A stretch of DNA of 64,000 nucleotides, taken from the NCBI RefSeq assembly GCF_009498035.1, contig NZ_CP034550.1:8866001-8930000 (forward strand), written 5' to 3'. A program made the translations under genes and the position numbers. The notes beneath the pieces were generated by a model that worked only from the letters and a program-made list of their open reading frames with translations, searched no databases and was not told where the DNA came from. Origin of the DNA: Saccharothrix syringae (GTDB taxonomy: Bacteria; Actinomycetota; Actinomycetes; Mycobacteriales; Pseudonocardiaceae). Positions 35,442-57,507 of the stretch are shown here, in pieces (within the stretch, counting starts at the first letter, position 1; each line of letters begins with the position of its first letter).

Positions 35442-36758
35442 TCAGGGCGCGTCGACGGCCCGACCGGAGAACGACACCGACGGGGTGCAGTTCACCGCGC
35501 TGTCGGGGTTCTGGCAGCTGACCTGGACCACGACCTTCTCGCCCTTGCGGAACCGCAGCGGCTCGACGTAGTGGCGGTCGAGGTCGCGGAAGTTGGCCAG
35601 GCCCACCTCCAGCAGCACGCCCCGGGTGCCGTCGGCGGCCTCGCGCAGCACCCGGACGGTGCCGGTGTCGCCGCGCGGGTTCTGCAGCACGATGTCGGTC
35701 ACCAGCAGCGCCTTGTCGGCGGGCAGGTCGGCGGTGAAGTCGGCGAACTGGTCGCGGTTCGCGGTCACGTCGGCGTCGGCGGCGACCCGGAAGTCGGTCG
35801 GCTCGCCCTGCTCGGCGGCCGGGTCCGGGCGCCGCGAGGTGGGCGGCGAGCCGGGTGACGCGCTCGGGTCCAGGCCCACCTCGCGCATGGCCGCCTCGGA
35901 GTTGGTCTTGGCCTGCTCGGCGGCGCCCTGCGCCTGCTGGGCACCCGCCTGGGCCTGCTCGGCGACGGCCTTGACCTCACTCGCCTGCTCGGCGGCGGCG
36001 TCGCGGGCGGCGGACTTCACCGCGGGCCGCAGCACGGTGAACCACAGCGCCACCAGCGCCACCGCGAGCGCCAGCAGGGCGGCCAGCGCGGGCAGCAGCC
36101 ACTTGGGCAGCAGCTGCCGCTGCACGAGGGTCCCGGTGGCGGTCAGCGACGGCCCGCTGCTGGGCACGACCTCCACCCGGAACGGCCGCGGCTGCGAGGG
36201 TCCGCGCAGGAAGGTGTCGCGGGGCTTGGCGACCAGCCGCACGAACGCGGCCGTGCCCGGTGTCAGCACCAGGTCGGTGCGGTCGAGCCGGAACTCCAGC
36301 TCGCCGTCCGGGTCGGCCGGGTGCAGGCGCACCGCGACCGGGGCGTTGCCGACGTTGTCGATCGCGACCTCGAACTTCCCCCTCGAACCGGCCTCGACCT
36401 TGGCGGGCACCAGCTCGGCGGACACCCCGGTGAACTCGCCGACCTCGACGCTGCCCTCCTCGACCACCGAGCCGTAGGGGTCCTCGCGGGAGGTGACGCG
36501 GATGCCGAACGGCACCGGCCCCGCGGCCACCTCGGCCGCGCGCGGCGGCGCGAACCGCACGACGACCGAGGCGGACCCCTGGGGCACCAGGTTCACGACC
36601 GCGGGCTCGGCGGTGGCCCAGCCCGCGGCGTCGCCGACGACGTCCACGGTGAACTCGTCGACCAGGTCACCGGTGTTGCGCACGACGACCGTGCAGGTGA
36701 CGTCTTCGCCCGGCGCCACGGCCAGGCCGGTGGTGGACAGCGTCGCGGTTGCACCCAT
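35442..36758 (-). CDS. Membrane protein with Ig-like domains and coiled coil, end of CIS operon
   Basis: 438 residues. The N-terminal 200 residues hold two beta-sandwich, CARDB-like units (VAPGEDVTCTVVVRNTGDLV, SRGKFEVAIDNVGNAPVAVR). One membrane segment lies at about 213-236, then a heptad, Ala/Gln-rich coiled coil (about 240-290) and a C-terminal beta domain (about 320-438). There is no signal peptide, so the N-terminal part is probably cytoplasmic and the rest outside. Proteins of this kind occur at the end of Streptomyces injection loci, annotated as hydrolytic protein without evidence of an enzyme. Start ATG 36758. Confidence 0.75.
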   Translation of the reverse strand: MGATATLSTTGLAVAPGEDVTCTVVVRNTGDLVDEFTVDVVGDAAGWATAEPAVVNLVPQGSASVVVRFAPPRAAEVAAGPVPFGIRVTSREDPYGSVVEEGSVEVGEFTGVSAELVPAKVEAGSRGKFEVAIDNVGNAPVAVRLHPADPDGELEFRLDRTDLVLTPGTAAFVRLVAKPRDTFLRGPSQPRPFRVEVVPSSGPSLTATGTLVQRQLLPKWLLPALAALLALAVALVALWFTVLRPAVKSAARDAAAEQASEVKAVAEQAQAGAQQAQGAAEQAKTNSEAAMREVGLDPSASPGSPPTSRRPDPAAEQGEPTDFRVAADADVTANRDQFADFTADLPADKALLVTDIVLQNPRGDTGTVRVLREAADGTRGVLLEVGLANFRDLDRHYVEPLRFRKGEKVVVQVSCQNPDSAVNCTPSVSFSGRAVDAP

Positions 36759-36852
36759 GGTGGTGGATCCTCCGGTGGTCGGCCCGGTCCGGGAACCGGC
36801 GCGGGGGTGGGGCGCGGTGCGTCCGCCGCTGCCCCATCGGGCGGGCGCCGGG

Positions 36853-39800
36853 TCAGTCCCGGCTGGCGAAGTCGGGTGGTTGCAGGGTCCTGGGCACGAC
36901 CAGGAAGTCGCCGGAGCGCACCGGCCCGAACCGCGGGCCGAGCACCGCCGTCGCCTCCAGCCTGCGCTGGCCGATGAGGTCGTTGTGGAACACCAGGAAC
37001 TGCGCGTCGAAGGTGCCGTCGGGGCGCACCGCGAACTCGCCGGGCGTCGGGGAGAGGCCCGCGGTCCAGGCGAGCCGGACGGTCGCGCCGGGCGGGAACC
37101 CGCGGCCGGTGGCGTGCGGCACGAACCCGGTGGGCCCGGTGCGCGGGTCGACCACCAGCTCCGGCTGCCGCACCAGCACGCGGGTGGTGGCGGTGTTGTC
37201 GGCCGGGTCGCTGTCCGGTCCGGTGCCCAGCACCGAGCCGCCCGCGGTGGTGTCGACCGCGGCGCGCGCGGGCAGGGCCACCCGCACCTCGGCCTCCTGA
37301 CCGGGTTCGAGGGTGCCCAGCGGGCACGTGGTGCAGCCGGCGACCGGCAGGAGCGCCGGCGGCAGCGAGGTGACCACGCGGACGTCGGTCATCGGCCGGG
37401 GCGCGCCGTTGCGGACCCGGAAGGACAGCACCAGGTCGTCACCGCCGACGAACGCCTCCGCCGGCAGCACGGCCACGGCCATCGACAGCGAGCCGGGGTT
37501 CTCCGGCGGCCGGACCCGCTCGGCGACCTCGACGGCGGCCTCGGCGCGGTTGTCGCCGGGGTTGACGTCGTCGGGCAGGGCCGCCGCCACGACGTGCCGC
37601 CCGGCGCCGGCGCCGGTGAGGGTGAGCCGGACCTCGGCGGTGGCGCCGGGTGCCAGGCGGCCCAGCGCGCAGCCGGTCGGGGCGCACGTGCCCGCGGTGG
37701 TGGTCACCGCGTCCACGCGCAGCCCGGCGGGCACGGTCAGCGCCAGGTCCGCCGCGCGCGGCGGGGCCAGGCCCCGGTTGGTCACGGTGAACCGCGCGGT
37801 GGTGGTGCCGCCGAACGCGACCGCGCCGGGCACGACCGCGCCGGTGACCCGCAGGTCGGGCAGGGGCCGGAACGCGGGCCGCTCCGCGTCCTCGCCGTCG
37901 AAGGAGACGAGCGGGGTCGGGTCGCCGCCCCCGGCCGGGATCGCCAGCACGCGAGCCGGGCTCTCGCCGTCGTAGCGCTGGAACGCGATCAGCTCGCCGT
38001 CCGGGGACCACGCCGGGTACCCGGGGTCGTCCTCGGCCAGGCCCCGGGCGATGCGCGATCCCAGGTCGAGCACGCACAGCCAGGACGACGAGGAGTAGGC
38101 GAGGCGGTTGCCGTCGGGTGACCAGGCGGGCGCGTCGTCGTCCTGCCCGCAGCCCTCGTTGAAGCGGGCGGTCAGGTCGACCTCGCGGCGCACGGCGGTC
38201 CCGGCCAGCTCGGCCAGCCAGATCGTCCGGAGGTTCTGCTCGCGCGGTTCGAACGCGGTGATGCCGGTGCTCGCGGTGGCGGTCCGGCCCGCCGAGGTGG
38301 CCGTGCACGTCACGGGGGTCAGGCCGACCGGGAACAGCGCGCCGGGCGTGGCGTCGCAGGTCGGGGTGAGCGGTGCGCCGGCGGCGTCGGTCGCGGTGGC
38401 GGTGAAGGGCACCGGCACCGGGGCACCGTCCGGGCTGGGCACGGCGTCCGCGCCGACCACGACCGTCGGGCCGGCGGCCTCGGTGACGTCGACGTACTGG
38501 TCGTGCGGTTGGGCGGGGTACCTGCCGTCGAAGCGGAACCGCACCCGGCAGCGCGGTGGGTCCGGCGACCGCGAGGACGCCCCCTGGTCCAGCCGCACGG
38601 TCTCGGTGAAGGTGACGTCGGTGTCGCCGGGCACGGTCGCCGAGGCCGGGGTGAACGAGATCGAGACGTTCGCCGGGCACTCCGCGACCGGCTCCACGGT
38701 CACCGGCACCTCGGCGATGCCCGCCTCCACGGCGGCGGCGACCAGGCCGGGCGGCGCGCCCTCCTCCACCAGGGAGCCGCCGGTCGCGTCCGTGATGGCG
38801 GTGGCCTGGCCCCGGGAGTCCAGGTGCTCGCCCGTGCCGGTCTCGACCGGGACGCCGACCACGTGGATGTGCCGGTTCTCGTCGCCCTCGCCGTGCGTGG
38901 TGAGGTCCTTGATGACGGTGTCGCGCCGCCAGTAGGGGCCGCACCAGTCCGGTTCGCCGGTGGGTTGCGCCGCGGCCGGCCGGACCGGCGCCCGCAGGCC
39001 CGGGCGGGCCGGCGTGGTCGGCGTGGTCGGCGTGGTCGGCGGGTCGGTCCACGGCGGGTCGGGGTCGGGTGACGACGGGTCGGGGGTCGGGTCCGTCGGC
39101 GGGCACTCGTGGCTGCTCGCGTCGCCCGCCAGCACCACGATCCGGCTCGTGTCGGGCTGCTCGAACACCCGGTCCGCGCCGCGCGCGACCTCGTGCAGGG
39201 CGTTGAACCAGTCCTCGGGCAGGTCCGGGTAGCCGTGCGAGGGGTCCACCACGATCGCGGCCAGCGCCGTGCGCACCGCCGCCCGGTCGCCCAGGTGCTC
39301 GACGAGCCGGTAGCGGCGTTCCCCGTCCTCGTAGTCCTGGTAGGTGGCCAGGCCGAACCTCGCGTCGGGCTCCTCGGTCTGGATGCGCCCCATCACGCCG
39401 TCCAGGTCGCTGGCCAGCTCGCCGACCGCGTGCTCCATGGACCCGGTGGTGTCGACCAGGAACAGGATCTCCGGCCGGGTGGGCACGGTCGGCGTGCGCA
39501 CGGTCGCCGAGGTGGTGAAACCGTCCGGTGTGGACCCGTGGACGGTGAACGGCCGGACGCGCGGCGTGGTCGGGTTCTCGCTGCGGCGGGCGAAGGCGAT
39601 CGAGTCGCCGTCCGGGGACCACGCCGGCTGGCTGTCGTAGGCGCTGACGTGGGCCGGGCGCGGCACGCGGGTGAGCACCGCGCCGTCGGACACCCGCACC
39701 ACCGAGATGCCGTTGTCGTCGGTGACCGCGATCATCGTGCCGTCCGGCGACCAGGTCGGTTCGCGCTCGCCCTCGCGGTCGCTGAGCGGGCGGGGGTCGG

Positions 39801-40122
39801 CGCCGTCGGCGTCGGCGATCATCACCCGGCCGGGGTCGTCGGTCGAGGCGTACCAGGCGGTGTAGGCGATCAGCGAGCCGTCCGGCGAGTAGGCCGGGTC
39901 GGACTCGTGCAGCGGCCCGGTGTCCGTGGTGGGTCGCGCGTCGCCGCCGACGGCGTCGGTGCTCCAGATGTCGCCGGGCCGGCCGCGGGACACGCCGACC
40001 CGGTAGGGCGTGAGCGGGTCCCGGGCCGCGGCCAGGACGGGCTGCGGCCGGCCCGCGGCGGCCGGGAGCAGGCCGGTGAGCAGGCCGGTGAGCAGCAGTG
40101 CGACCAGTGCCAGGTGCTTCAT
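36853..40122 (-). CDS. Secreted TolB-like/VWA/CARDB multidomain protein in the CIS operon
   Basis: 1089 residues with a signal peptide (about 1-24). It carries PD40/TolB beta-propeller repeats (PAYSPDGSLIAYTA, PTWSPDGTMIAVTD, PAWSPDGDSIAFAR), then a VWA domain with a MIDAS-like FLVDTTGSM (about 215-430) that includes a Pro/Thr-rich insert, then a HYR-like region, more PD40 repeats (PAWSPDGNRLAYSS) and three C-terminal CARDB/DUF11-type beta domains. It looks like an adhesive or scaffolding surface protein. The gene is 6 bp behind the zinc-ribbon gene, so it belongs to the operon; its role in injection is unknown. Confidence 0.8.
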   Translation of the reverse strand: MKHLALVALLLTGLLTGLLPAAAGRPQPVLAAARDPLTPYRVGVSRGRPGDIWSTDAVGGDARPTTDTGPLHESDPAYSPDGSLIAYTAWYASTDDPGRVMIADADGADPRPLSDREGEREPTWSPDGTMIAVTDDNGISVVRVSDGAVLTRVPRPAHVSAYDSQPAWSPDGDSIAFARRSENPTTPRVRPFTVHGSTPDGFTTSATVRTPTVPTRPEILFLVDTTGSMEHAVGELASDLDGVMGRIQTEEPDARFGLATYQDYEDGERRYRLVEHLGDRAAVRTALAAIVVDPSHGYPDLPEDWFNALHEVARGADRVFEQPDTSRIVVLAGDASSHECPPTDPTPDPSSPDPDPPWTDPPTTPTTPTTPARPGLRAPVRPAAAQPTGEPDWCGPYWRRDTVIKDLTTHGEGDENRHIHVVGVPVETGTGEHLDSRGQATAITDATGGSLVEEGAPPGLVAAAVEAGIAEVPVTVEPVAECPANVSISFTPASATVPGDTDVTFTETVRLDQGASSRSPDPPRCRVRFRFDGRYPAQPHDQYVDVTEAAGPTVVVGADAVPSPDGAPVPVPFTATATDAAGAPLTPTCDATPGALFPVGLTPVTCTATSAGRTATASTGITAFEPREQNLRTIWLAELAGTAVRREVDLTARFNEGCGQDDDAPAWSPDGNRLAYSSSSWLCVLDLGSRIARGLAEDDPGYPAWSPDGELIAFQRYDGESPARVLAIPAGGGDPTPLVSFDGEDAERPAFRPLPDLRVTGAVVPGAVAFGGTTTARFTVTNRGLAPPRAADLALTVPAGLRVDAVTTTAGTCAPTGCALGRLAPGATAEVRLTLTGAGAGRHVVAAALPDDVNPGDNRAEAAVEVAERVRPPENPGSLSMAVAVLPAEAFVGGDDLVLSFRVRNGAPRPMTDVRVVTSLPPALLPVAGCTTCPLGTLEPGQEAEVRVALPARAAVDTTAGGSVLGTGPDSDPADNTATTRVLVRQPELVVDPRTGPTGFVPHATGRGFPPGATVRLAWTAGLSPTPGEFAVRPDGTFDAQFLVFHNDLIGQRRLEATAVLGPRFGPVRSGDFLVVPRTLQPPDFASRD

Positions 40123-40128
40123 CGTCGG

Positions 40129-41652
40129 TCACCTCACCGCGAAGAACTCGATCTCGGCGAGGGCCACCTCGCTGCCCCGCAGCGACCGGTGGACCTCGAC
40201 CACGTGCACCTCGACCGAGGTCGCGCCCTCGCTGCCCTCGATCTTCACGCGCTGCTCGTCCGGCGTGTCCGCCAGCTCGACGTCGAACGTCCGGCCGGTC
40301 GGGTAGACCAGGTGCAGCTTCTTCGGCCGGTGCGCGGCCTGGAAGTCGTCCGGGTCGCCGGCGCGCACGATCGCCTGCCGCAGGTCGACCTCCTGGCCGA
40401 AGTCCAGGACCAGCGCCGGGGGACGCGGCTCGACCGGCGCGAGCCAGAACGTGTTCTTCGCGTTGTCCGCCGCCAGCAGCGCCGGGTGGCCGGCGGACTC
40501 GGCGGTGGCGGTGACCGAGGTCGGGTGGACCGGGGTCAGGTCGGTGGCGAACACGCCCTTGACGTCGTGGACCCGGTCCAGGGCCCAGGTGTTGACGGCG
40601 GACCGGACGGCCGGCGCGAGCCCGTACAGGCCGACCGCGGCCAGCAGGGCGGTCAGGAAGGACCAGCGCAGCACCTTGCCCACGCCCCGGCGCGCGTTGC
40701 CGCGGCGGTGGCGGGTGCCGGCCTTGGCGGGTGCCCGCTCGGGCAGCAGGCGGCGCCACCACTTCTCCGGCACCACGGCGGCTTCGGCGAGGGCGGAGCC
40801 GCAGCGGGAGCAGAACTTGCGGGTGGGGGTGTTGGCCTCGCCGCACTGGCCGCAGATCAGGTCGCCGGGTTGGGGTTGGCGGCGCTCGGTCAGGCGGGGG
40901 CGGGGCGGGGAGGGGGACTTCTGGTCGCTCGGCTGCATGGCGCCCGGTTGTTGGGGGGCCGGTTGTTGCGGGGCCGGTTGTTGCGGGGCTGTTGATGGAT
41001 AATCCGGTCCTGGCTGATCAATGGGTGGGAAACCGGGACCGGACTGACCCGCGGGCAGGAACCCCGGACCCGACTGACCCGACTGACCCGCGGGTGGAAA
41101 CCCAGGACCGGACTGACCCGCGGGCGGGAAGCCGGGACCGGATTGCCCAGTTGATGGATAACCCGGCCCTGCCTGCCCCGCCGGAGGGAATCCCGGACCG
41201 GACTGCCCCACCGGGGGAAACCCCGGCCCCGCCTGCCCCACCGGAGGAAACCCGGGACCAGACTGCCCCACCGGAGGAAACCCCGGCCCTGCCTGCCCCA
41301 CCGGCGGGAACCCGGGACCAGACTGACCGGTTGATGGATAACCAGGTCCCCCCTGACCCGCCGGCGAAAACCCCGGCCCCGCCCCACCGCTTGATGGATA
41401 ACCCGCCCCCGGCTGCCCCGCCGAAGAAACCCCCGCCCCCGACTGCCCGCCCGACCTGCCCGCCCCCGGCGGCCCGCCCGGCTGCCGCGGCGGTCCCGAC
41501 CTCCCGCCCCCGGGAGCCCCACCCCGCGGCATCCCGTTCCGCGGCTGGTCACCCGACCCCGGCTGCGGGTCCCACTCCAGGTAAGTCCCGCAGGCACCGC
41601 AGAACTCCGCACCCACCGCGCTCCGCTCACCGCACTGCGCGCACACGATCAT
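40129..41652 (-). CDS. Zinc-ribbon/collagen-like repeat/TM/discoidin-like protein (CisA-like candidate)
   Basis: 507 residues. First zinc ribbon (CAQC...CGAC, about 4-21); a Gly/Pro/Ser/Gln-rich region with about a dozen near-identical units such as GQSGPGFPPV (about 80-220); second zinc ribbon (CGQC...CSRC, about 267-285); one membrane segment (about 340-362); and a C-terminal discoidin/NADase-type glycan-binding-like domain (ALLAADNAKNTFWLA, VLDFGQEVDLRQAIVR) outside. The layout suggests a membrane docking protein with an outside glycan-binding head, like Streptomyces CisA, but this equivalence is inferred. The ATG overlaps the tail-protein stop (ATGA). Confidence 0.8.
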   Translation of the reverse strand: MIVCAQCGERSAVGAEFCGACGTYLEWDPQPGSGDQPRNGMPRGGAPGGGRSGPPRQPGGPPGAGRSGGQSGAGVSSAGQPGAGYPSSGGAGPGFSPAGQGGPGYPSTGQSGPGFPPVGQAGPGFPPVGQSGPGFPPVGQAGPGFPPVGQSGPGFPPAGQAGPGYPSTGQSGPGFPPAGQSGPGFPPAGQSGQSGPGFLPAGQSGPGFPPIDQPGPDYPSTAPQQPAPQQPAPQQPGAMQPSDQKSPSPPRPRLTERRQPQPGDLICGQCGEANTPTRKFCSRCGSALAEAAVVPEKWWRRLLPERAPAKAGTRHRRGNARRGVGKVLRWSFLTALLAAVGLYGLAPAVRSAVNTWALDRVHDVKGVFATDLTPVHPTSVTATAESAGHPALLAADNAKNTFWLAPVEPRPPALVLDFGQEVDLRQAIVRAGDPDDFQAAHRPKKLHLVYPTGRTFDVELADTPDEQRVKIEGSEGATSVEVHVVEVHRSLRGSEVALAEIEFFAVR

Positions 41653-42161
41653 GCCCCCACCACCTCCAGCTCCACCGCGACGTGCGCGGGCACCGCCGAG
41701 GCGATCGCCGCGTGCAGCCGGGTCCGGTCGACCTCCTGCGGCCGCGCCACGCGCACCCGGACGTGCACCCGCGCCGGGTTCTCCACCACCGGCAACCCCG
41801 GCCGGTCGGTCGACGTCACCCCGCCGCTGTCGCGCACCTCCACCTGCCCCCCGGTCAGCAGGGACACGTGCTCGGCCAGCCCGCGGCGCGTCCCCCGCCA
41901 CCGGTGCAGCTCCACCGCTCGCGCCACCAGCACCCGCCGCTGGAGCACCGACCAGCCCTCGCCGACGTCGAGCGCCACCCAGTGCGCCAGCCAGTCCAGG
42001 AAGTCCTCGGGCGCCAGCCGCGGGTCCAGGTAGCCGGCGAACCCGTCCAGCACGGTGAACACCGGCTCCAGCACCTCGTCCAGCGCGGCCAGGAACCGCT
42101 GGGTGAACAGGTCCTCCAGGTACACGGCGGGCAGCCGGTCGGCCAGCGGGTGCGGGGTCAT
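41649..42161 (-). CDS. Phage tail protein I-like baseplate component
   Basis: 170 residues, matching the short tail-protein family (P2 gpI-like, TIGR02242 type) found next to baseplate J in injection systems. Seen: LPAVYLEDLFTQRFLAALDE, FLDWLAHWVALDVGE, ELHRWRGTRRGLAEHVSLLT. It should form part of the baseplate wedge with the J-like protein. Stop/start overlaps of 4 bp on both sides show tight coupling. Confidence 0.88.
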   Translation of the reverse strand: MTPHPLADRLPAVYLEDLFTQRFLAALDEVLEPVFTVLDGFAGYLDPRLAPEDFLDWLAHWVALDVGEGWSVLQRRVLVARAVELHRWRGTRRGLAEHVSLLTGGQVEVRDSGGVTSTDRPGLPVVENPARVHVRVRVARPQEVDRTRLHAAIASAVPAHVAVELEVVGA

Positions 42162-44098
42162 CTCGCCACCCGCACCTGGTGGCCGTAGGAGAACGCCAGC
42201 CCGTTGGCGGGCAGGTCCAGCCGGGCCACCGCGGCGCCGCGCTCGCCGGTCACCGGGTTCGCGCCGAACAGCCTGATGTCCTCGACCAGCTCCACCCCTG
42301 GCAGGCGCTGGAGCACCGCGAACACCTCGCCGGACTGCACCGGCCGGCCGAACGGCCACCCGTCGCCGTCCGGGCCGCCGCTGACCGGGTTGAAGTAGTC
42401 GTAGAGGGCCTGCACGGCGCGCGTGCGCAGCACGTCCTCGGGCGTGCCGGCCCGCGCGCGCAGCTGCGCCACCACGGTGACGCCCTGGTAGAACGGCGGC
42501 TCCACGGACACCCGGGCGCCGACGCACCGGCGTTGCTCCAGGAACCGCTCGATCCGCTCGCGCACGTCCGCGCCCGGTTGCAGCGCGGCGAAGTCCGACT
42601 CCTCGTCCGCGGCCACCGACGGCACCACCAGCACCCGCACCGCCGACCCGGCCTCCCCGGCGGGCACGCACCGCACCCGCGCGATCTCCGGCGCGGCCTC
42701 GCGGGTCAGCAGCTCGTAGTCCTCGGCGGTCACCGCCCGGTCGCGGGTGCGCAGCAGCAGCGGCCCGCGCAGCGCCGCGTCCGCCACCGACTCGCCCGCC
42801 ACGCCGCCCGCCGCGGGCCGCCGGTTGGTCACCGAGCTGACGAACGGCACCGGGTCCCGCTGCACCCGCAGCAGCCCGCGCGCCACGTTGCCGCGCAGCC
42901 CGCCGCCGGTCCGGTACTCGGGCACGCGGACCGCGGCCGACTTGGCGGGCACCGCGCCGTAGTGGCGCACCCCGCCGCCGGGCTGCCGCACGGCCGGCCC
43001 GAACAGCACCTCGCCGCCGACGCGGTCGAGCACCACGTGCCGGTCCTGCGGCCCGGACTCGGCGAACGAGCGCACCTCGTGCCACCGCTCCCAGCCGTCC
43101 GGGCAGGCGACCTCCACGACCAGCGCGCCCTCGTCGACCACGACCGGGGTGCGGGCCAGCGGGAACCGCTGCCCCGGCACGCCCTCGGACACGCCCAGCA
43201 CCTCGCCGCGCACCACGTCGGCGTGCGTGGCCGCGGTGGTGCCGCCGATGGTGGCGGCGGTGACCGCGAGCAGCTTCGGCGGCCGCTGGTAGGTGGGCCG
43301 GTCCGGGCCCGGTTCGACGGCGCGGCAGCGCAGCCAGCCCGCGCGCAGCCGGGCCACCACCGACGCGGTGTGCGAGTGCGGCACGTGCAGCACCACGTCA
43401 CCGGGCTGGTTGAAGCCGCCGGTGCTGTCGCGGTCGACCTCGCACGGGCTCCACCCGGCGCCGTTCCACGCCTCCCAGGCCCACGGCGGGTCGCGCGGGT
43501 CCACGCCGCGGCCCTCGGCGTGCGCCTCGACGCGCAGCAGCACCGCGCACCCGGGCACGGCGTCGGACAGGCCGAACAGCACCGCGTCACCGGCGGCGGG
43601 CGGGTCGGCGAACACCTCGGGCGCCTTGCCGTCGCGCAATTCGTCGGTGCGGTCGGCGGGCGGCACGTCCGGGTCGGCCACCGCGGTCACCAGGTGCGCC
43701 AGCGAGCACGGCACGACGGTCAGCTCCCGGTCCACGGTGAACACCACCGGGTCCTCGACCTCGCTGCGCTCGGTGGCCACCTGCGCGCCGGCGGGCACCA
43801 CCACGGGCACGTCGCGCGGCGCGGACAGCCAGAACGTCACCTCGCCGCGCGCCGCGGTCGGCGGGAACAGCTTCACCCCGATCAGGTCCAGGAACCGCAG
43901 GTAGTGCAGGTCCGGCACGCGGTTGAGCCGGTACAGCAGCTCGTCGACCATGTGCGCGAACGCCTCGATCAGCGTCACGCCGGGGTCGGAGACGTTGTGG
44001 TCGGTCCACTCGGGGCAGTGCTGCTGGACGCGGCGCTTGGCCTCGTCCACCAGGTCCTGGAAGCGGCGGTCGTCCAGGTTGGGCGTGGGCAGGGACAT
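42158..44098 (-). CDS. Baseplate assembly protein (gpJ-like wedge)
   Basis: 646 residues, of the putative baseplate assembly family (TIGR02243 type, equivalent to Pvc11/Afp11 and P2 gpJ). N-terminal LPTPNLDDRRFQDLVDEAK and WTDHNVSDPGVTLIEAFAHM are diagnostic; the middle is a variable beta domain; the C-terminal half contains VTAEDYELLTREAAPEIARV and YDYFNPVSGGPDGDGWPFGR. It forms the baseplate wedge that holds the sheath before contraction. It overlaps the gp25 stop by 3 bp and the tail protein start by 4 bp. Confidence 0.93.
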   Translation of the reverse strand: MSLPTPNLDDRRFQDLVDEAKRRVQQHCPEWTDHNVSDPGVTLIEAFAHMVDELLYRLNRVPDLHYLRFLDLIGVKLFPPTAARGEVTFWLSAPRDVPVVVPAGAQVATERSEVEDPVVFTVDRELTVVPCSLAHLVTAVADPDVPPADRTDELRDGKAPEVFADPPAAGDAVLFGLSDAVPGCAVLLRVEAHAEGRGVDPRDPPWAWEAWNGAGWSPCEVDRDSTGGFNQPGDVVLHVPHSHTASVVARLRAGWLRCRAVEPGPDRPTYQRPPKLLAVTAATIGGTTAATHADVVRGEVLGVSEGVPGQRFPLARTPVVVDEGALVVEVACPDGWERWHEVRSFAESGPQDRHVVLDRVGGEVLFGPAVRQPGGGVRHYGAVPAKSAAVRVPEYRTGGGLRGNVARGLLRVQRDPVPFVSSVTNRRPAAGGVAGESVADAALRGPLLLRTRDRAVTAEDYELLTREAAPEIARVRCVPAGEAGSAVRVLVVPSVAADEESDFAALQPGADVRERIERFLEQRRCVGARVSVEPPFYQGVTVVAQLRARAGTPEDVLRTRAVQALYDYFNPVSGGPDGDGWPFGRPVQSGEVFAVLQRLPGVELVEDIRLFGANPVTGERGAAVARLDLPANGLAFSYGHQVRVAR

Positions 44099-44791: not shown

Positions 44792-44802
44792 GCCGCACCC
44801 CC

Positions 44803-50177: not shown

Positions 50178-50336
50178 TCACCGCCCCTGGCTGATCCGCG
50201 TGTTGATGCGCGCGATCTCGGCCACGTACCGCCGCCGGTCCGCGTGCTCCAGGTCGAGGATCGAGTCCCACGACCAGTGGAAGTGGTAAGCCACGTACGC
50301 GACCTCCTCGTGCAGCCGGTCGGCCGCGTACGTCAC
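50178..50336 (-). CDS. DUF6760-like small CIS protein
   Basis: 52 residues from GTG 50336, with GGGGGAA upstream: DRLHEEVAYVAYHFHWSWDS and ILDLEHADRRRYVAEIARIN. The pattern resembles phage tail assembly chaperone fragments of the DUF6760 type found between tube genes in injection loci. The start overlaps the upstream stop by 4 bp. Short, but the place, overlap and motifs support it. Confidence 0.82.
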   Translation of the reverse strand: MTYAADRLHEEVAYVAYHFHWSWDSILDLEHADRRRYVAEIARINTRISQGR

Positions 50337-50785
50337 GATTCCCCCGGGCGACCGCCCGCGACGTCCACGCTGAACCCGTGGCCGCACTCGGGGCAGGCCA
50401 CCGGCGCCCGCGTGTGCCCCTCGCTGTTGACCCGCCGGTACACGTCCTGCAGGAAGGCCAGGTCCGCCGCGAACAGGTTCTCCACGACCCCGGCGTGCAC
50501 GTCGGTCACCGTGCCGAGGCGCACGACCACCCGCGCCAGCAGCACGACGGTCAGGTAGGCCGGGTTCTCGCGCACCCGGTCGTCGCGCAGCGGCACCAGC
50601 TCGTCCCGCGCGGTGGCCAGGCGCATCACGCCCGCCCGGTGCACCACGCCCGCGTCGTCGACGTACCCGCGCGGCAGCTCGAAGGCGAACTCCGTGCGCA
50701 TCGGCTCGACCACCGGAGCACCAACCGGGGCACCGACCGGGGCACCGACCCCCGGAGCACCGACCCCCGCCATCACCCTGCGCAT
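50333..50785 (-). CDS. Conserved CIS protein with single CxxC motif
   Basis: 150 residues from ATG 50785 (an ATG at 50773 is equally possible). After a short GAPVGAP repeat, the core reads FELPRGYVDDAGVVHRAGVM and AYLTVVLLARVVVRLGTVTD, and the end has CPECGHGFSVDV. The core looks like the T4-like tail assembly proteins next to tube genes. The CxxC could bind zinc as a dimer. Function is not known; operon position between main tube and DUF6760 is constant in such loci. Confidence 0.78.
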   Translation of the reverse strand: MRRVMAGVGAPGVGAPVGAPVGAPVVEPMRTEFAFELPRGYVDDAGVVHRAGVMRLATARDELVPLRDDRVRENPAYLTVVLLARVVVRLGTVTDVHAGVVENLFAADLAFLQDVYRRVNSEGHTRAPVACPECGHGFSVDVAGGRPGES

Positions 50786-50789: not shown

Positions 50790-51233
50790 TCACTCGACTT
50801 CCATCATCTCGTAGGTGACGACGAGCTTCTCGGTCAGCACGCTGGTGTCGCCCGCCTTCAGCGACCCGATCTCCAGCGACTTGGGCCACGCGTTGGTCAG
50901 CTTGTACCGCTTGATCGGCTGCCCCTCGTAGTCGTAGACGATGATCGCCCCGCCCTTGCGCGCGCTGCCCATCTTCCCGAAGTGCGCGTCCTTGACCCAC
51001 TTCTCGAAGCTGTTGTCCGCGGTCAACCCTCGGGTCAGGGTGACCTCGCCCGCCTTGGGCCGACCGGGCAGCTTCTTGATGACGTACTTGCCGTCGGAGG
51101 TGTTCTGCTTGAGCTCGATGACGTCCTGCTCCATCTTCAAGCCGGACACCTCGGAGATCTGCTTGATGGCGACACCGTCCACCTCAAGGCCGAAGGAGTG
51201 GCCGACGGACGTGTCGAGATCGGGGAGGGCCAT
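50790..51233 (-). CDS. Main inner-tube protein (Hcp/gp19-like)
   Basis: 147 residues: LDTSVGHSFGLEVDGVAIKQ, SEVSGLKMEQDVIELKQNTS, KLPGRPKAGEVTLTRGLTAD. This is the typical major tube subunit (Pvc1-like, TIGR02241 type); hexamers stack to form the tube pushed out on contraction. It lies 12 bp behind the sheath gene. Lys-rich composition is normal for tube subunits. Confidence 0.94.
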   Translation of the reverse strand: MALPDLDTSVGHSFGLEVDGVAIKQISEVSGLKMEQDVIELKQNTSDGKYVIKKLPGRPKAGEVTLTRGLTADNSFEKWVKDAHFGKMGSARKGGAIIVYDYEGQPIKRYKLTNAWPKSLEIGSLKAGDTSVLTEKLVVTYEMMEVE

Positions 51234-51245: not shown

Positions 51246-52778
51246 CTACTCGTTGACCAGACTGGTGCCGCCGGAGATCTGCGCCAGGCGGAAGATGACG
51301 AACTCGGCGGGCTTGACCGGTGCGACGCCCACCTCGCAGACCACCTGGCCGAGGTCGATGGACTCGGCGGGGTTGGTCTCGCGGTCGCACTTGACGTAGA
51401 ACGCCTCGTCCGGCGTGAGCCCGAACAGCGCGCCCTTGCGCCACTCCGTGACCAGGAAGGCGCTGATGGTGCGGCGGATGCGCGCCCACAGCGCGTCGTC
51501 GTTGGGCTCGAACACGACCCACTGGGTGCCGTTGAGGATGGACTCCTCCAGGTAGTTGAACAGCCGCCGCACGTTGAGGTAGCGCCACGCCGGGTCGGAC
51601 GACAGCGTGCGCGCGCCCCACACCCGGATGCCGCGACCGGGGAACGACCGCACGCAGTTCACGCCGATCGGGTTCAGCAGCTCCTGCTCGGCCTTGGTCA
51701 GCTGCGTCTCCAGCGCCACCGCGCCGCGCAGGACCTCGTTGGCGGGCGCCTTGTGCACGCCGCGCGTGCCGTCGGTGCGCGCCCACACGCCGGCCACGTG
51801 CCCGCTGGGCGGGATGTGCACGTGCTCGTCGCTGGCCGGGTCGAAGACCTTGACCCACGGGTAGTACAGGGCGGCGTACTTCGAGTCGTAGCCCGCGTCG
51901 TTGAGGCGCCAGTCCTTGACCTGCTGCGGGTTCAGCCCCGGCGGCGGGTCGAGCACGGCGACCCGGTTGCCCATCAGCTCGCAGTGGGCGATCATCGCCA
52001 GCTGCACGGCCTTGACGGACTCCAGCGTGATCGCGCCGCGCCGGTAGCTCGACATCAGGTCGGGCACGGCCACCATGGTGACCTCCTCGACGGCCTCCAG
52101 CCCGCCGAACCCGGTGCGGTCGGCCACGTCGCCCACGTAGTCGTCGGCGGCGACCTCGCGCGGCACGGGCGGTGCGGCGGGCGAGTCCTTGAGCGTCACG
52201 CTGCCCTTGTCCGGCTTGGCGAGCCCGCTGGACGCGGCCTCCTCGATGGTGATCAGCTTCGACTTCTCCTGCACCACCGTGACCACGTTCTCCTTGGTGC
52301 GCTTGGTGGTCACGTGGTGCGTCTCGACGACCTTGCCGTTCTGCTTGACCAGCAGCGTGAACCGGTCGTCGGGCGCGTTCTCGCCCTGCGCGTCGGCCAC
52401 CTCCACGGTGATCTCGCCCGCGTCGAGCTGCTTGGCGGCGACGCGGTAGCCGCCGAGCGCGGCCTGGGCGGTCGGCGCCTCGACGGGCTTGCCGTTGCCG
52501 CCGGCGCCGGCGCGCTCGCCGCCGATGCGGACGACGTAGCAGTTGGTGCCGCCGTTGAGGAAGTAGCCGTACACCGACTGGGCGAGGTAGCAGTCCTCGA
52601 CGTAGTCGCCGAACACCTGCGTGTACTGGGCCCAGTTGGTGACCAGGGTCGGTGTGTTGAACGGTCCCCTGGCCGCGAAGCCGACGAAGGCGGCGACGGC
52701 GGTGCCCACGCCCTCGATGGGCCGCGCACCAGCCTCCACCTCCTCGACGTACACCCCCGGCGAGAGATAGGTGGGCAT
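51246..52778 (-). CDS. Contractile tail sheath protein
   Basis: 510 residues, the single sheath gene of the locus. N-terminal LSPGVYVEEVEAGARPIEGV and TAVAAFVGFAARGPFNTPTL are diagnostic; the C-terminal sheath core has GVNCVRSFPGRGIRVWGART, YLNVRRLFNYLEESI and NPAESIDLGQVVCEVGVAPV. Residues about 110-260 form a variable insert likely exposed on the surface. Contraction of the sheath drives the tube. ATG 52778 with GGGAGG upstream starts the main operon. Systems such as Pvc have three sheath genes; only one is here, as in Streptomyces. Confidence 0.95.
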   Translation of the reverse strand: MPTYLSPGVYVEEVEAGARPIEGVGTAVAAFVGFAARGPFNTPTLVTNWAQYTQVFGDYVEDCYLAQSVYGYFLNGGTNCYVVRIGGERAGAGGNGKPVEAPTAQAALGGYRVAAKQLDAGEITVEVADAQGENAPDDRFTLLVKQNGKVVETHHVTTKRTKENVVTVVQEKSKLITIEEAASSGLAKPDKGSVTLKDSPAAPPVPREVAADDYVGDVADRTGFGGLEAVEEVTMVAVPDLMSSYRRGAITLESVKAVQLAMIAHCELMGNRVAVLDPPPGLNPQQVKDWRLNDAGYDSKYAALYYPWVKVFDPASDEHVHIPPSGHVAGVWARTDGTRGVHKAPANEVLRGAVALETQLTKAEQELLNPIGVNCVRSFPGRGIRVWGARTLSSDPAWRYLNVRRLFNYLEESILNGTQWVVFEPNDDALWARIRRTISAFLVTEWRKGALFGLTPDEAFYVKCDRETNPAESIDLGQVVCEVGVAPVKPAEFVIFRLAQISGGTSLVNE

Positions 52779-52934
52779 CCGTTGCCTCCCCGCGATTAGT
52801 GCCGACACGGCTGTGCTGCCGACGATGTTGCTGCGGTGGGGCGAGCTCCGGAACGACCGCGCGGCGGTGCCGGGGTACGCCGCCGGCTGCCCAAAGGTGC
52901 AGCGGCGCGTCCGGGGCGGACCTGGTAGGACGGG

Positions 52935-53984
52935 GTGGTGACCGCTCACCCGGACGTCGTCGGCGTCGGCGCGCTCAACCTCGACCACGTGGTGACCACC
53001 GACCTCGACGTCGGCCTGGAACCGGGCGTCGAGCACGCGGTGGACGCCGCCACCGCCCGCGCGGCCGTCGAGGCGGTCGCGCCGGCCGGGCCGCGCACCG
53101 CCCTGGGCGGGTCCGCGTTCAACGCCGTGCACGCGATCGCCCGCACCGGCTCCGGCCTGCGGCTGGGCTACGTCGGCGTGGCGGGTCGGGCGCCGGGCTT
53201 CGACGTGGTGCGGGAGTTCGAGCGGCTGGGCGTCGACCACCGCTTCGTGTTCGAGGAGGACGACCTGCTGTGCGGGACGTGCGTGTCCCTGGTGCGGGGC
53301 GGCGAGCGGACGCTGCTGACCCACGACGGGGCGAACGCGCGGCTCGCCGACCTGGTCGGGCGGCACTTCGACGAGCTGGCCGGGTACCTGGCCGGCGCCC
53401 GGGTGGTGCACGTGACGTCGTTGCTCGACGACCGCGCGCCCGGCCGGCTGCCGGCCCTGCTCACCGAGGTCAGGCGGCGGTCACCGGGCACCGTGCTCTC
53501 CTTCGACCCCGGTCACGCGTGGTGCGCCGCGCGGCCGCCTGGGGTCGACGGCATCGCGCGGCTGAGCGACTGCCTGCTGCTCAACGAGCGCGAGTTCCGC
53601 GCGCTGGGCGACCACCGGCCGGGCGAGCCGGAGCGGGACACCGCGGCACGGCTGTTGGCGCGGTTCGCCGACCCGCGCGCCGCGGTCGTGGTCAAGCGGC
53701 CGACGGGCACCGCGGTGTTCCGGCGCGACGGCGACGAGTTCCACCCCGGCGAGCTGCTGGCCGAGCGGGACATCGCGGACCCCACGGGCGCCGGTGACGC
53801 GTTCGCCGCCGGCCTGCTGGCGGTGCTGGCCCGCGACCGGTCCGCCGTCGGGCTCGGCGCGTCGCTCGGGATGGCGCTGGCCAGGCACAAGATGCGCCAC
53901 GCCGGGTACGAGGGGTTCCCGGGGCTGTTCCAGGAGATCTACTCCTCCTCGTCCTCCTCGCGCTGCACCGCGGGCGGCACGTAG
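52935..53984 (+). CDS. PfkB-family carbohydrate kinase inside the CIS locus
   Basis: 349 residues. PfkB motifs: the N-terminal glycine pair region ([20 protein letters not shown]) and the C-terminal signature with catalytic Asp ([16 protein letters not shown]). It phosphorylates a sugar or nucleoside; the substrate cannot be assigned. It is divergent from the sheath gene, and its end overlaps the DUF4157 gene by 46 bp (convergent), so it separates the two parts of the locus. TAGGAC just upstream of the GTG pair suggests a leaderless mRNA. The C-terminal serine run comes from the overlap. Confidence 0.88.
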
Positions 53985-54667
53985 GTCTGCGCGACCTCTT
54001 CCTCCGGCGCCTCCTCCGGAGCCGGGGCGGGCATTTCGTCCCGCTGCACCGAGACCTCCCGGTGCCCCGCGGCCTCCCGCTGCACGGCGGCCCCGGGCGC
54101 CGGCCCGGCCATGACGCGGTCGGCGTTGGCGCTCGCCTCCCGCTCGAAGCGGTCGGACGGGTCGCTGACCTTGATGCCCCCGCCGGCGTCCGTGCCGTCC
54201 ACCGGGCCGCTGCGCTGCTGCACCACGTGCGTCAGCTCGTGGGCGAGCACGTGCCGCCCCGCGTCGGAGGACGGGTCGTACGCGTCGCGCTGGAACACGA
54301 TGTCCGACCCCACCGTGTAAGCGTGCGCGCTGACCGACCGGGCCGACTCGTGCGCCGCGCCGTCGGTGTGCACGCGCACGTCGCCGAAGTCCTGGTTGAA
54401 CCGGGCCTCCATGTCCTCGCGCACGTCCGCGTCCAGCGGCGAGCCGCCGGAGTTCACCACGTCGTGCACCGGCGACTCCTCGGCCAGGGCGCTCGCGCCC
54501 GCGTTGCCGACGACCCGCTGGAGCCCCAGCATGCCCGCCGGTCCCAGCACGTCCCGCCTGCCCGCGGCGGCGGCTCGGCCGAGCAGGTCGCCCTCGTCGC
54601 GGTCGGGCCGGTCGCCCCTGGGCCGGAACCCGGCCTCGCCGTCGTGGTCGTGCTCGTGGCCGCGCAT
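53939..54667 (-). CDS. DUF4157 (eCIS core domain) protein
   Basis: 242 residues. His/Asp-rich N-terminus, then [19 protein letters not shown] and the DUF4157 domain (about 65-150) with the zinc motif in [16 protein letters not shown]. The tail is acidic and carries repeated VQR triplets ([31 protein letters not shown]). DUF4157 is a marker of contractile injection loci, where it often heads toxin cargo; here no toxin domain follows. It may be cargo, a processing protease or a loading factor. ATG 54667 follows GGGAGGGAG. The 243 bp upstream contains an 18-bp repeat (54829-54864) and no gene. Confidence 0.9.
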
Positions 54668-54910: not shown

Positions 54911-56902
54911 TCACCGCCCCACCCCCTCCGCCGCCAACCCCAAGTACCGCCCGAACTCGCGCTCCCCGACCAACCGCCCCAGCTTGCGGTACTCGCGGGC
55001 CACCGCGCCGACCACCTCGGCCATGCCCACCGGCCGCCCCGACTCGGCGGCCAGGTACGCGGCCGTCACCGCGGCCGACCGGATGTGCCCGCCCGCCAGC
55101 TCGAACGACGCGGCCAGGAAGTCCAGGTCCACCTCACCGCGCGGCGCGGACGCCCCCAGGCACCGGTCCCACAGCCTCCGCCTCAACACCGGGTCGGGCA
55201 GCGGGAAGTCGACCACCACGTCCAGCCTGCGGGTGAACGCCTCGTCCAGGTTCGCCCGCAGGTTCGTGGCCAGCACCGCGATCCCGTCGAAGGTCTCCAC
55301 CCGCTGCAGCAGGTAGGCGCTCTCGATGTTGGCGTACCGGTCGTGCGCGTCGCGCACCTCCGACCGCTTGCCGAAGATCGCGTCGGCCTCGTCGAACAGC
55401 AGCACGCCGTTCACGCCCGCCGCCTCGGTGAAGATCCGCTCCAGGTTCTTCTCGGTCTCACCCACGTACTTGTCCACCACGGTCGCCAGGTTCACCGTGT
55501 AGAGGTCCAACCCCAAAGACGCGGCGATGACCTCGGCGGACATCGTCTTGCCGGTGCCGGAGTCGCCCGCGAACAGGCCCGTGACCCCCCTTCCGCGCCC
55601 GCCGCCGGGCCGCATCCGCCACTCGTCGATCACCCGGTCGCGGTGCCGCGCGCGGGACGCCAGCTCCCGCAGCAGGCCCACCACCTGGTCGGGCAGCACC
55701 AGGTCGTCCCAGCCGACCGCGGGTTCGACCCGGCGGGCCAGCCGCTGCAACCCGGCCGCGTTCTGGCTGCGCGCGCCCGCCCGCAGGTGCTCGGTGGTCA
55801 CCACGCCGCCGTCGACCAGGGCCGACACCGACGCGGCCCGCGCGGCGCGGGCGATCTGGCCGGGGCCGAGCACGAAGTGGGCGGTGGCGGCGGCCGGGTC
55901 GACGCCGGGCGCCAGCCGGCCGTCCAGGCGGGTCCGCCACACCCTGGCGCGCTCGGCGACCGGCAGCGGCCCGGCCTCGTGCGGCAGCGGCGGTTCGGTG
56001 CTCCACCGCGGGTCCCACACCCCCGGCCCGAACACCACCAGCGGCACCGCAGGGTGGGTGAGGTCGGTCAGCGGCGGCTCGTCCTCCACCGGCCCGAGCA
56101 CCAGCCCCGCGCCGCGCAGCACGGCCTCGCGCAGCACCGCGCCGCCCCGGTCCGGTTCGGCGCGCAGCCGGTCGGCGTCGACGCCCAGCACCGCGAACCC
56201 GGCCCGCCGCAACGCGGCGGCGGCCGTCTCCCGCGCGCCGCCGCCCGGGCGTTCCCGCAGGTGGACGAGCCGTATCCCGGCCTGGAAGGCGCGCACGAGC
56301 GGGCCCACGTCGGCGGCGGGCACCTCGTCGACGACCCGGGCCACCCCGGTGAGCGCCGCGTCCGGCCGGTCGTCGCCGAGCAGGTGGTTGACCACCCGGT
56401 CGGGCACGCGCAGCGACCGCGACAGGAACGGGCGCTCCCGGTCCTCCACCACCAGCAGCCCGGCGGCGGGCAGCGGGGAGGACGGGTCCAGCCGCGCCCG
56501 GCCGGCCGCCGACGCCTCGGGCAGCCCGCACAGGCGCAGCGCCAGGCCCGCGGTGGCCCGGCGGCGCGTCACGTCGTCGTTGAGGTAGCCGTAGAACTGC
56601 TCGAACCGGCTGTCCACGTCCGGCGCCAGCGCCACCAGCAGCAGCTCCACGTCCAGCCCGGTCAACCCGGCGGTGTCGGCCAGCCTCCCCAGCCGCCCGG
56701 CCGCCGGCGACTCCTGGAACGGCACGAACGGCTCCCGGCGGGTGGCCAGCAGGGCGTCGATCGCCTCGTCGGACAGGTAGAGGCCGCGGAACGGGTCGTC
56801 GGGGTTGTGGTCGGTGCCCCGGCGGGCCGCGACCGCGTCCCGGATGCGCCGCTCCAGGGCCGCGAGCCGGGTGAACAGGTGGGGCAGGCCGCCGGTGTTC
56901 AC
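54911..56902 (-). CDS. CIS-associated AAA+ ATPase (Pvc15-like)
   Basis: 663 residues. The N-terminal 400 residues are a family-specific, helical region with degenerate nucleotide-fold features (LTGLDVELLLVALAPDVDSR). The C-terminal AAA+ domain has Walker A GDSGTGKT (about 445-452), Walker B VLLFDEADAIFGKR (about 500), and an arginine region in LDEAFTRRLDVVVDFPLPD. Members are required for or aid assembly or cargo loading in Pvc/Afp systems. GTG 56902 overlaps the Pvc16-like stop (GTGA). Confidence 0.92.
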   Translation of the reverse strand: MNTGGLPHLFTRLAALERRIRDAVAARRGTDHNPDDPFRGLYLSDEAIDALLATRREPFVPFQESPAAGRLGRLADTAGLTGLDVELLLVALAPDVDSRFEQFYGYLNDDVTRRRATAGLALRLCGLPEASAAGRARLDPSSPLPAAGLLVVEDRERPFLSRSLRVPDRVVNHLLGDDRPDAALTGVARVVDEVPAADVGPLVRAFQAGIRLVHLRERPGGGARETAAAALRRAGFAVLGVDADRLRAEPDRGGAVLREAVLRGAGLVLGPVEDEPPLTDLTHPAVPLVVFGPGVWDPRWSTEPPLPHEAGPLPVAERARVWRTRLDGRLAPGVDPAAATAHFVLGPGQIARAARAASVSALVDGGVVTTEHLRAGARSQNAAGLQRLARRVEPAVGWDDLVLPDQVVGLLRELASRARHRDRVIDEWRMRPGGGRGRGVTGLFAGDSGTGKTMSAEVIAASLGLDLYTVNLATVVDKYVGETEKNLERIFTEAAGVNGVLLFDEADAIFGKRSEVRDAHDRYANIESAYLLQRVETFDGIAVLATNLRANLDEAFTRRLDVVVDFPLPDPVLRRRLWDRCLGASAPRGEVDLDFLAASFELAGGHIRSAAVTAAYLAAESGRPVGMAEVVGAVAREYRKLGRLVGEREFGRYLGLAAEGVGR

Positions 56903-57507
56903 GGGCGCCTGCGCACCGCGGCCGGCCGGTGCGCGACGTGGTCGCCGCCCACGGCCAGGTGCAGGCCCTCCCGGACCGGGGGACCGGCGGGCAGCACGCG
57001 CCCGGCGTCGACGGGCGCCGACACCACCACGTCCAGCGACGGCTTCAGCTCGCCGCCCAGCGCCGACCACACGTCGGCGAACGCGCGGTCCTCCGGCGGC
57101 GGCAGGGCCACGGTCATCGGCACGGGCAGCTTCAGCTCGTCCAGGGAGCCGGTGAGCAGCGCGGTCGGCAGCGACTCGTGCCGCAGGAAGCCGACCAGGA
57201 GCTCGGAGAGCAGCCGGTGCTCGTCCTCGGAGCGCTGCGTCCACGCCGTGACCAGGTAGGACAGCTTGATGTGCCGGGGCGGCAGGCGGCGGGCGGTGAC
57301 CTGGCCGTTCTCGTACTCGTTGAGCAGGCCCCGCTGGCGGCGGCGCAGGTCCTCGCGGATGTCGTAGAGGTAGACGTTGACCGTGGGCGCGTTGCGGCGC
57401 GCGGCCCAGTCCTTCGTGGGGGCCTCGAACGCGACCTCCACGTCCGTGCCGCGCAACGCGTCGTCGCGCACCAGCCGCCGCAGCGCCTCGTCTACCTCGT
57501 GGATCAC
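56899..57507 (-). CDS. DUF4255 terminal cap protein (Pvc16-like)
   Basis: 202 residues: VIHEVDEALRRLV, then PTVNVYLYDIREDLRRRQRG and LPPRHIKLSYLVTAWTQRSE, then LLSELLVGFLRHE. This is the DUF4255 family, the cap that ends tube and sheath in eCIS particles. It starts with GTG 57507 and is the first gene of the cap-ATPase transcription unit; no gene lies in the 197 bp before the membrane protein at 57705. Confidence 0.92.
   Translation of the reverse strand: MIHEVDEALRRLVRDDALRGTDVEVAFEAPTKDWAARRNAPTVNVYLYDIREDLRRRQRGLLNEYENGQVTARRLPPRHIKLSYLVTAWTQRSEDEHRLLSELLVGFLRHESLPTALLTGSLDELKLPVPMTVALPPPEDRAFADVWSALGGELKPSLDVVVSAPVDAGRVLPAGPPVREGLHLAVGGDHVAHRPAAVRRRP

Follow-up and report, generated by a model that had tools for sequence, protein, structure and literature searches.

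Among described systems, the closest relatives of the locus treated here are the contractile injection systems (CIS) of Streptomyces that form intracellular particles. In Streptomyces coelicolor the system is encoded by Sco4242-4260 (PMC10066040, PMC10020575, PMC12237407). According to the accessible parts of the published accounts, its membrane adaptor CisA (Sco4242) is required for contraction, the cluster is stated to have no tape-measure gene, and Sco4256-4258 were reported as CIS effectors with one transmembrane (TM) segment, a similar N-terminus and, in two of the three, a ricin domain. These proteins lowered the viability of E. coli, their deletion left most tube lumens empty, and the first domain of Sco4256 was noted to resemble pilus chaperones. 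In this study, we analyzed a 64,000-nucleotide stretch of the genome of Saccharothrix syringae (NZ_CP034550.1, forward-strand positions 8,866,001 to 8,930,000; hereafter the window, whose numbering is used throughout unless stated otherwise), which is assembled as a single 10.93-Mb contig. The minus strand of the window carries, from 57507 to 35442, a CIS locus that is, judged from its genes, complete, of the actinobacterial class IId type and of an already known kind. The new part of the locus is a predicted movable module, composed of the genes here called p35 and p36 and a LuxR-type regulator gene, which stands beside CIS loci in several actinobacterial families.

The p35-p36-LuxR module

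The module and the two regulatory genes next to it comprise the following features:
35442..36758, minus strand: p35, two immunoglobulin (Ig)-like domains and a TM segment, assigned to the family of Sco4256-4258 (AlphaFold model; 38% identity to a ricin-tailed paralogue)
36853..40122, minus strand: p36, predicted secreted PD40 beta-propeller / DUF11 protein (PF07676 8.9e-25; PF01345 9.7e-16)
34795..35418, plus strand: LuxR/GerE regulator of the module (PF00196 2.9e-12; adjoins p35/p36 in relatives)
34015..34695, plus strand: response regulator beside the module (PF00072, PF00196; 79% in the same-genus genome G083)
33351..34013, plus strand: soluble histidine kinase beside the module (PF07730, PF02518; 70% in the same-genus genome G083)

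The AlphaFold model of p35 (16 sequences, pLDDT 84.7, pTM 0.48) consists of two beta-sandwich domains (about residues 1-213), a long helix (221-294), a disordered linker and a C-terminal beta-sandwich (319-436). The TM segment predicted by hydropathy (225-243) forms the first part of the helix, the remainder of which would be a helical stalk. In Foldseek the leading matches were Ig-like domains, among them some of the ASH/SPD-2 and some of the pilus-chaperone kind, which aligned to a part of the model (TM-scores normalised by query length, 0.17-0.29) and are in line with the published pilus-chaperone likeness of the first domain of Sco4256. A sequence-profile search of p35 against solved structures found nothing.

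A link to the S. coelicolor effectors came from the S. coelicolor-like locus of Streptomyces stelliscabiei, in which two tandem p35-like genes lie between the sheath and AAA genes, beside cap and a LuxR gene, one with a ChW match and the second with a ricin lectin domain. The window p35 is 38% identical to the ricin-tailed paralogue over residues 26-253, after which the alignment ends, so that it spans the Ig domains and the TM segment only. Because this arrangement mirrors Sco4256-4258, the alignment points to p35 as a member of that family with another C-terminal domain. The traits of the family, namely a conserved N-terminal Ig/chaperone-like region, one TM segment, a variable C-terminus and linkage to a CIS, are all found in p35, which we assign to it as a member with an exchangeable C-terminus, Sco4256 being compared by its description. 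Unlike S. stelliscabiei, where the p35-like genes are duplicated beside the AAA gene and p36 was not found, the window has one p35 with a conserved ectodomain together with p36, at the 3' end of the locus.

Multiple p35-like genes were also noticed elsewhere. A Streptosporangiaceae locus (L148:3609-7863) has three, the first of which carries an N-terminal zinc ribbon as in CisA, and a locus of genome G115 (L150:3632-9062) encodes, next to a cap-like gene, two long p35-like proteins, called at 952 and 856 aa, and a third, weaker one cut by the end of the stretch.

The second protein, p36, is 1089 aa long and has a hydrophobic N-terminus at residues 4-22 (hydropathy), PD40 propeller repeats and DUF11. 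Its last 220 residues (domain 870-1089) are the best conserved part, and their model reached a pLDDT of 88.6. A vWA-like stretch (DTTGS) was seen by eye and vWA is listed for several homologues; the window p36 gave no Pfam match to a vWA domain. Homologues from gene calls are 710-1339 aa long (one 315-aa partial match left out). An N-terminal hydrophobic segment was found by the hydropathy rule in 18 of 22 called homologues, and the other four have a signal-like start by eye, their called start probably being late. The family is modular and variable at its N-terminus. In its accessible part, a survey of extracellular CIS (eCIS) lists vWA among the toxins, GerE regulators in the loci and a histidine kinase beside some of them (PMC8213781), and the window has a LuxR/GerE gene as well. 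The secretion signal of p36 makes it a misfit with a toxin loaded in the cytoplasm, the sense in which that survey lists vWA domains, perhaps of another family. In the accessible parts of PMC12237407, PMC13277306, PMC10020575, PMC10066040, PMC8213781, PMC11126660 and PMC12923769 we found no description of p36 or of any connection between it and the p35 C-terminus.

The position of the module differs among loci. In the window and in the same-genus genome G083, which has the same locus (84% identity of the baseplate J protein), p36, p35 and LuxR stand on the 3' side of CisA. The same three genes are found 5' of cap in Stackebrandtia, Micromonospora, S. netropsis, Nocardioides and a second locus of S. 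syringae, and in genome G049 cap, AAA, p36, LuxR and p35 are found together, about 50 kb from the sheath-to-tail-I genes. A local origin of p35 and p36 within the Saccharothrix group was considered and rejected, as whole-genome searches and further flanks revealed them in other families and at the opposite end of the locus. The second S. syringae locus, of the same general type (7.570-7.606 Mb of the genome; L005/L006), has its own CisA-type gene, p35, p36, two LuxR genes and two DUF4157 proteins.

The distribution of the module was described with two sets: the 80 best loci of a longer list obtained by scanning named genomes with a J alignment, on which every count of named loci given below is based, and a sample of 150 genomes of the order. 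By tblastn with 10-kb flanks, 16 of the 80 named loci had p35 and 15 had p36. When genomes were searched as a whole, p35 was present in all of the 37 named CIS-bearing genomes searched (37 of the 80 named loci were given to the search) and in 35 of the 37 order-sample genomes with a J match at E<=1e-80, versus 4 of the 113 others; the p35 match of G139 in this sample covers only positions 221-361 and is probably spurious. The occurrence of p36 followed the C-terminus of p35. It was found (E<1e-20) in 21/21 named genomes with the full C-terminal ectodomain and in 0/14 with a replaced C-terminus, two genomes being set aside (Fisher p 4e-10, which is no probability of chance, as the genomes are related). 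In the order sample, where a match over the second half of the model was counted, the corresponding figures were 14/16 and 0/23, and the 17 p36 places counted were all within 6.7 kb of a p35 match. A profile of the C-terminal domain agreed with these labels on the proteins at hand, including some outside its training set. In a 39-row J tree, built without the third S. syringae locus (a long outlier), the p35 C-terminus and p36 changed together three times out of three (sign p 0.25), and in a 67-row J tree four of six supported pairs agreed (sign p 0.125).

Several points weigh against so close an association. First, the labels "full" and "replaced" were set by eye from hit ranges. Second, the result depends on the thresholds: any match to the p36 model at 1e-6 occurs in 25/37 named genomes, three weak ones being counted as absent (G202 and G203 over the generic DUF11 half, G193 over positions 124-191 at 6.7e-7), and in the order sample 21 of the 35 genomes with a p36-model match were dropped, almost all for matches over the DUF11 half. 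In the genome searches, scores were computed for a fraction of the first-look candidates (e.g. 19/154), so that absences are not proof. Of the two genomes set aside, G184 has p36 and the C-terminal part of p35 on another contig and was left out of the tree pair count. The other, G190, has no p36 match; by hit range it is full, its protein being a row of the profile, and a profile built without this protein (L096) shows no C-terminal domain there, for which it was labelled replaced in the trees. In the 67-row tree, no p36 was found in G013 and G014 though their p35 reaches the C-terminus; the contig of G013 is short, and the C-terminal domain is weak in both (27 and 32 bits versus 98.6-176.7 elsewhere). 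Finally, the independent changes are few, and neither tree sign test can reach significance. Taken together, the case for p36 as partner of the p35 ectodomain is good but not decisive.

Structural genes and CisA

The other genes of the locus are listed below, from the cap gene onwards:
56899..57507, minus strand: cap / tail terminator, Pvc16_N, Cis16-type (PF14065 6.9e-47; 9gts_0A 5.4e-63)
54911..56902, minus strand: AAA+ ATPase with winged-helix domain (PF00004 1e-21; PF22977 9.1e-25)
53939..54667, minus strand: DUF4157 (eCIS_core) protein, Sle2-like, no further Pfam domain (PF13699 1.9e-34)
52935..53984, plus strand: PfkB kinase gene in the effector slot (PF00294 1.8e-24)
51246..52778, minus strand: contractile sheath (PF04984/PF17482, 8.9e-25 and 5.3e-20; 8bky_A 2.3e-217)
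50790..51233, minus strand: inner tube 1, gp19-type (PF06841 7.2e-31)
50333..50785, minus strand: 126-150 aa conserved CIS protein (matches beside tube 1 in CIS loci; no Pfam match above cut-off)
50178..50387, minus strand: DUF6760 protein, start uncertain (50336 or 50387) (PF20546 9.8e-15)
47808..50174, minus strand: 788-aa Pro/Ala/Val-rich protein (VQR/VQK motifs, conserved C-terminal tail)
47371..47802, minus strand: tube 2 / tube initiator, gp19-type, Cis1b-type (PF06841 1.2e-30)
46607..47365, minus strand: CIS_tube + LysM adaptor, Cis7-type (PF19266 3e-23; PF01476 8.8e-7)
44803..46617, minus strand: VgrG-like spike, Cis8-type (Phage_base_V PF04717 1.4e-26; 9gtr_q 6.6e-104)
44510..44806, minus strand: PAAR tip (PF05488 6.9e-18)
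44098..44508, minus strand: gp25 baseplate wedge, Cis9-type (PF04965 6.5e-26)
42158..44098, minus strand: baseplate J, Cis11-type (PF04865 3.2e-14; 9gtp_1K 4.7e-220)
41649..42161, minus strand: tail protein I, Cis12-type (PF09684 2.4e-12; 9gtp_E 1.3e-32)
40129..41652, minus strand: CisA-type membrane adaptor (PF13240 5.8e-8; NF047619 52 bits, cut-off 38)

Gene order is as listed, with p36 and p35 after the CisA-type gene and, beyond p35 on the plus strand, the LuxR gene and the kinase/response-regulator pair. Genes were taken from a home-made caller and a list of open reading frames, and families were assigned by Pfam; 59 reading frames of the window were scanned, two called genes (20200-20493 and 59722-61464) standing outside the scan. 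An earlier note, made from the letters of the sequence, had described a complete actinobacterial CIS, and each component that it named has a Pfam match at its place, all of its eCIS families being recovered by profile search. Its single sheath and two tube proteins also stand; it had missed the PfkB gene, the 126-150 aa protein, the DUF6760 protein and the 788-aa protein. According to the gene coordinates, the 4-bp overlaps that it saw at most junctions exist at 5 of 17: cap/AAA, 150-aa/DUF6760 (if the start is at 50336), VgrG/PAAR, J/tail I and tail I/CisA. Nine others have gaps or overlaps of no more than 12 bp, and three (AAA/DUF4157, DUF4157/sheath and p36/p35) are wider.

The kinship with the Streptomyces loci for intracellular particles, also suggested in the note, was supported by Pfam, by the J scan of named genomes and by solved structures. 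Five proteins (J, sheath, cap, tail I and spike) were searched singly against solved structures, and the best matches were 9gtp, 9gts, 9gtr and 8bky, which we take to be entries of the S. coelicolor CIS; J scored 736 bits against a solved entry of a Streptomyces-type CIS. Like the S. coelicolor system, the locus has the same structural set, an AAA+ ATPase, CisA after tail protein I, the p35 family and no tail fibre, no tail-fibre family being among the Pfam matches of the operon proteins. Matches of the AAA+ protein in PADLOC were read as generic AAA similarity. Among the best 80 named loci, the nearest J relatives are from Saccharothrix (86-91% identity), followed by Lentzea, Amycolatopsis, Actinokineospora, Micromonospora, Streptomyces and others. 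A third CIS locus of S. syringae (3.408-3.448 Mb; L007/L008) has two sheath genes and belongs to a different subtype.

The CisA-type gene directly follows the baseplate genes, as in class IId-type CIS. Its 507-aa product comprises a zinc ribbon, a Pro/Gly-rich linker, a second zinc ribbon, a TM segment (331-349) and a C-terminal NADase-type discoidin domain, the last of which matches NCBIfam NF047619 above its cut-off. Layout and place are the same as those of Sco4242/CisA, as compared by published description. CisA-type matches were found in 57/80 named J loci, some over the first ~28 residues only, and several of the loci without a match end on short contigs. The note had assigned three large accessory genes to the membrane or the outside of the cell. 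This direction proved right, with three unlike things lumped together: the predicted products are CisA, a known membrane adaptor, p35, of the known candidate-effector family Sco4256-4258, and p36, a putatively secreted propeller protein.

The 788-aa protein and the effector slot

The 788-aa protein lies between DUF6760 and tube 2 wherever both neighbours were found. A profile of its C-terminal tail, trained on 8 loci, was found in 52/52 others, and proteins of this type with the conserved tail span 561 to 1280 aa, their length varying widely between loci. The body is of low complexity and contains seven VQR/VQK motifs versus 0.28 expected; in the proteins of this type from 59 other loci, 417 were seen versus 11.2 expected. 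With the wider pattern [VL]Q[RK], DUF4157 proteins were also enriched (99 versus 5.0 expected, n=30), the sheath proteins were below expectation (3 versus 20.8), and seven slot effectors hardly carried it (0 to 3 each versus 0.8 to 1.3). This control is imperfect, as J proteins exceed expectation as well (114 versus 38.2, n=82; about 1.4 sites per protein). From its position and length variation, our guess is that the 788-aa protein may be a tape measure, setting the length of the particle, or a cargo scaffold.

In the S. lividans SLP system, with its pair Sle1/Sle2, a DUF4157 (Sle2-like) gene lies upstream of the sheath, as in the window, according to the accessible text (PMC13277306). The slot between the DUF4157 gene (the AAA gene in S. 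netropsis) and the sheath was compared in relatives using 20 upstream stretches from 19 loci, for which genes were called by the home-made caller with approximate starts. It was readable in 17 loci, as the DUF4157 gene is located elsewhere in L134 and L135. It was empty in six of these 17; five had an opposite-strand protein of ~1000-1090 aa, three a set of 3-4 genes, two a co-directional protein of 1134-1155 aa and one an unassigned gap. From their sequences, the large slot proteins look like the Sle1 type, as far as that is described in the available text, with variable C-termini. In L123 and L137, the Sle1-like effectors have different C-termini and are followed by small genes, possibly encoding immunity proteins.

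Of the Sle1/Sle2 pair, the Sle2-like DUF4157 member is present in the window. Compared with the SLP locus as accessibly described (PMC13277306), the slot lacks the Sle1-type, tape-measure-like effector; no Sle1-like protein was found in this slot beside the sheath, which holds only a PfkB gene for 349 aa, overlapping the end of the DUF4157 gene antisense with its last codons. A search of the S. syringae genome with an Amycolatopsis slot protein gave one match, at 3096459-3097394 of the genome (L160, ~3.096 Mb), within a 961-aa frame outside the three CIS loci. It covers residues 488-799 of the query at 37% and may belong to a Sle1-like effector. A DUF4157 domain, likewise outside the three CIS loci, was noticed at 6466544-6466759 of the genome (L120) within a 963-aa frame, a possible orphan effector.

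Among the 120 listed homologues of the PfkB protein, most are fusions of ~460-570 aa with a CAP12/Pycsar TIR domain, and about 12 are PfkB alone. The window protein shares the PfkB domain with these fusions (55% identity to P0195), whereas the TIR half is absent, no C-terminal CAP12/Pycsar TIR domain being found in it. A role of PfkB as a conserved CIS effector was rejected, since it was in 0/19 other gene-called loci and, in the family search of 120 genomes, none of the 119 besides its own gave a match at 1e-40. The only other genome with full PfkB-TIR genes among 396 searched, S. syringae included, was G410, where the 15.6 kb examined, ending at a contig end 0.6 kb past these genes, gave no match to the CIS proteins of the window. 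We read the window PfkB as an acquired gene, probably a TIR-less relic or a free-standing kinase, with an effector role unproven.

Among the remaining scanned genes of the window, metabolic, transport and regulatory functions prevail, and some genes had no Pfam match. Also noticed in the window were a glycine riboswitch (11465-11555, minus strand) upstream of a glycine cleavage P-protein gene, and a group of STAS, anti-sigma-type ATPase and sigma-70 genes (17343-19871) resembling a stress-sigma cascade.

Possible roles of p35 and p36

Taken as a whole, a cytoplasmic IId-type CIS with CisA docking and an extracytoplasmic p35-p36 pair is probably the best explanation of these sequences. The particle would very probably assemble in the producer's own cytoplasm, CisA would bring it to the cytoplasmic side of the membrane, and it would fire there, as proposed for S. 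coelicolor. p35 may travel in the tube and enter the membrane upon firing, or it may reside there beforehand. Either way, hydropathy and the model suggest a cytoplasmic position for its Ig-like domains and an external one for its C-terminal beta-sandwich, which would pair with p36 within the wall space. Control of the module would lie with the LuxR gene, alone or together with the kinase/regulator pair. In the S. coelicolor-type clade, where p36 was not found, the p35 C-terminus is replaced, for example by a ricin-type lectin domain. It counts against this explanation that the topology of p35 comes from hydropathy and a model, and that Sco4256 and CisA were compared by description.

More tentatively, p35 with its ectodomain and the secreted p36 might form an envelope-spanning device that couples the outside of the cell to the intracellular injection machine, be it by sensing, by docking or by receiving a fired effector. 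Many actinobacterial IId-type CIS would share such a device, and the S. coelicolor-type clade would lack it.

Doubtful, and still worth weighing, is a purely signalling role, in which p36 senses the envelope from outside and p35 relays this to its cytoplasmic Ig-like domains, which together with CisA dock or fire the particle, neither protein being cargo. p35 shares a bitopic layout with CisA, the first of the three p35-like genes of L148 encodes a CisA-like zinc ribbon, and contraction in S. coelicolor needs CisA according to the accessible account; the mostly empty lumens reported after deletion of Sco4256-4258, on the other hand, point to cargo for this family.

Unlikely, in our view, is an effector/immunity pair, in which the p35 ectodomain acts as a toxin outside the membrane and p36 as a secreted protector, both being lost when the C-terminus was swapped. 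The joint presence and absence of the two, their close linkage and the reduced E. coli viability reported for Sco4256-4258 would fit, and one Sle1-type toxin is described, in the available text, as trailed by an immunity gene. However, the ectodomain is conserved across several actinobacterial families and not polymorphic, and there was no toxin-family Pfam match. Immunity proteins are usually unlike p36, which is large, modular and variable at its N-terminus.

It is improbable that the locus is a classical extracellular CIS whose particles are released by lysis and carry p36 for receptor binding or as a kind of fibre. Adhesion is a frequent role of propeller and Ig-type domains. A fibre survey, as far as its accessible part goes, reports fibre genes in Actinobacteriota. 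Nevertheless, the Sec-type N-terminus of p36 should direct it out of the cytoplasm, where the particle assembles, its gene follows CisA here and adjoins cap in other loci, and the Pfam scans of the operon gave no fibre family. A defective prophage, the possibility against which the earlier note had set its own reading, has next to no chance of being correct and was rejected: the structural parts are of phage-tail descent, yet no capsid, terminase, portal or integrase family was found in the 59 scanned reading frames of the window, AAA+, DUF4157 and CisA are present, and the synteny of CIS loci is conserved across Actinobacteria.

In Streptomyces, the trigger and the target of intracellular CIS are both open questions. 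Should p35 and p36 indeed form an envelope-spanning device, the model organism studied so far would show a derived state. If many actinobacterial IId-type loci use a membrane protein together with a secreted partner that is missing in the S. coelicolor-type clade, the trigger or the target may lie outside the cytoplasm, and Actinosynnema, Saccharothrix or p36-bearing Streptomyces would be better test beds.

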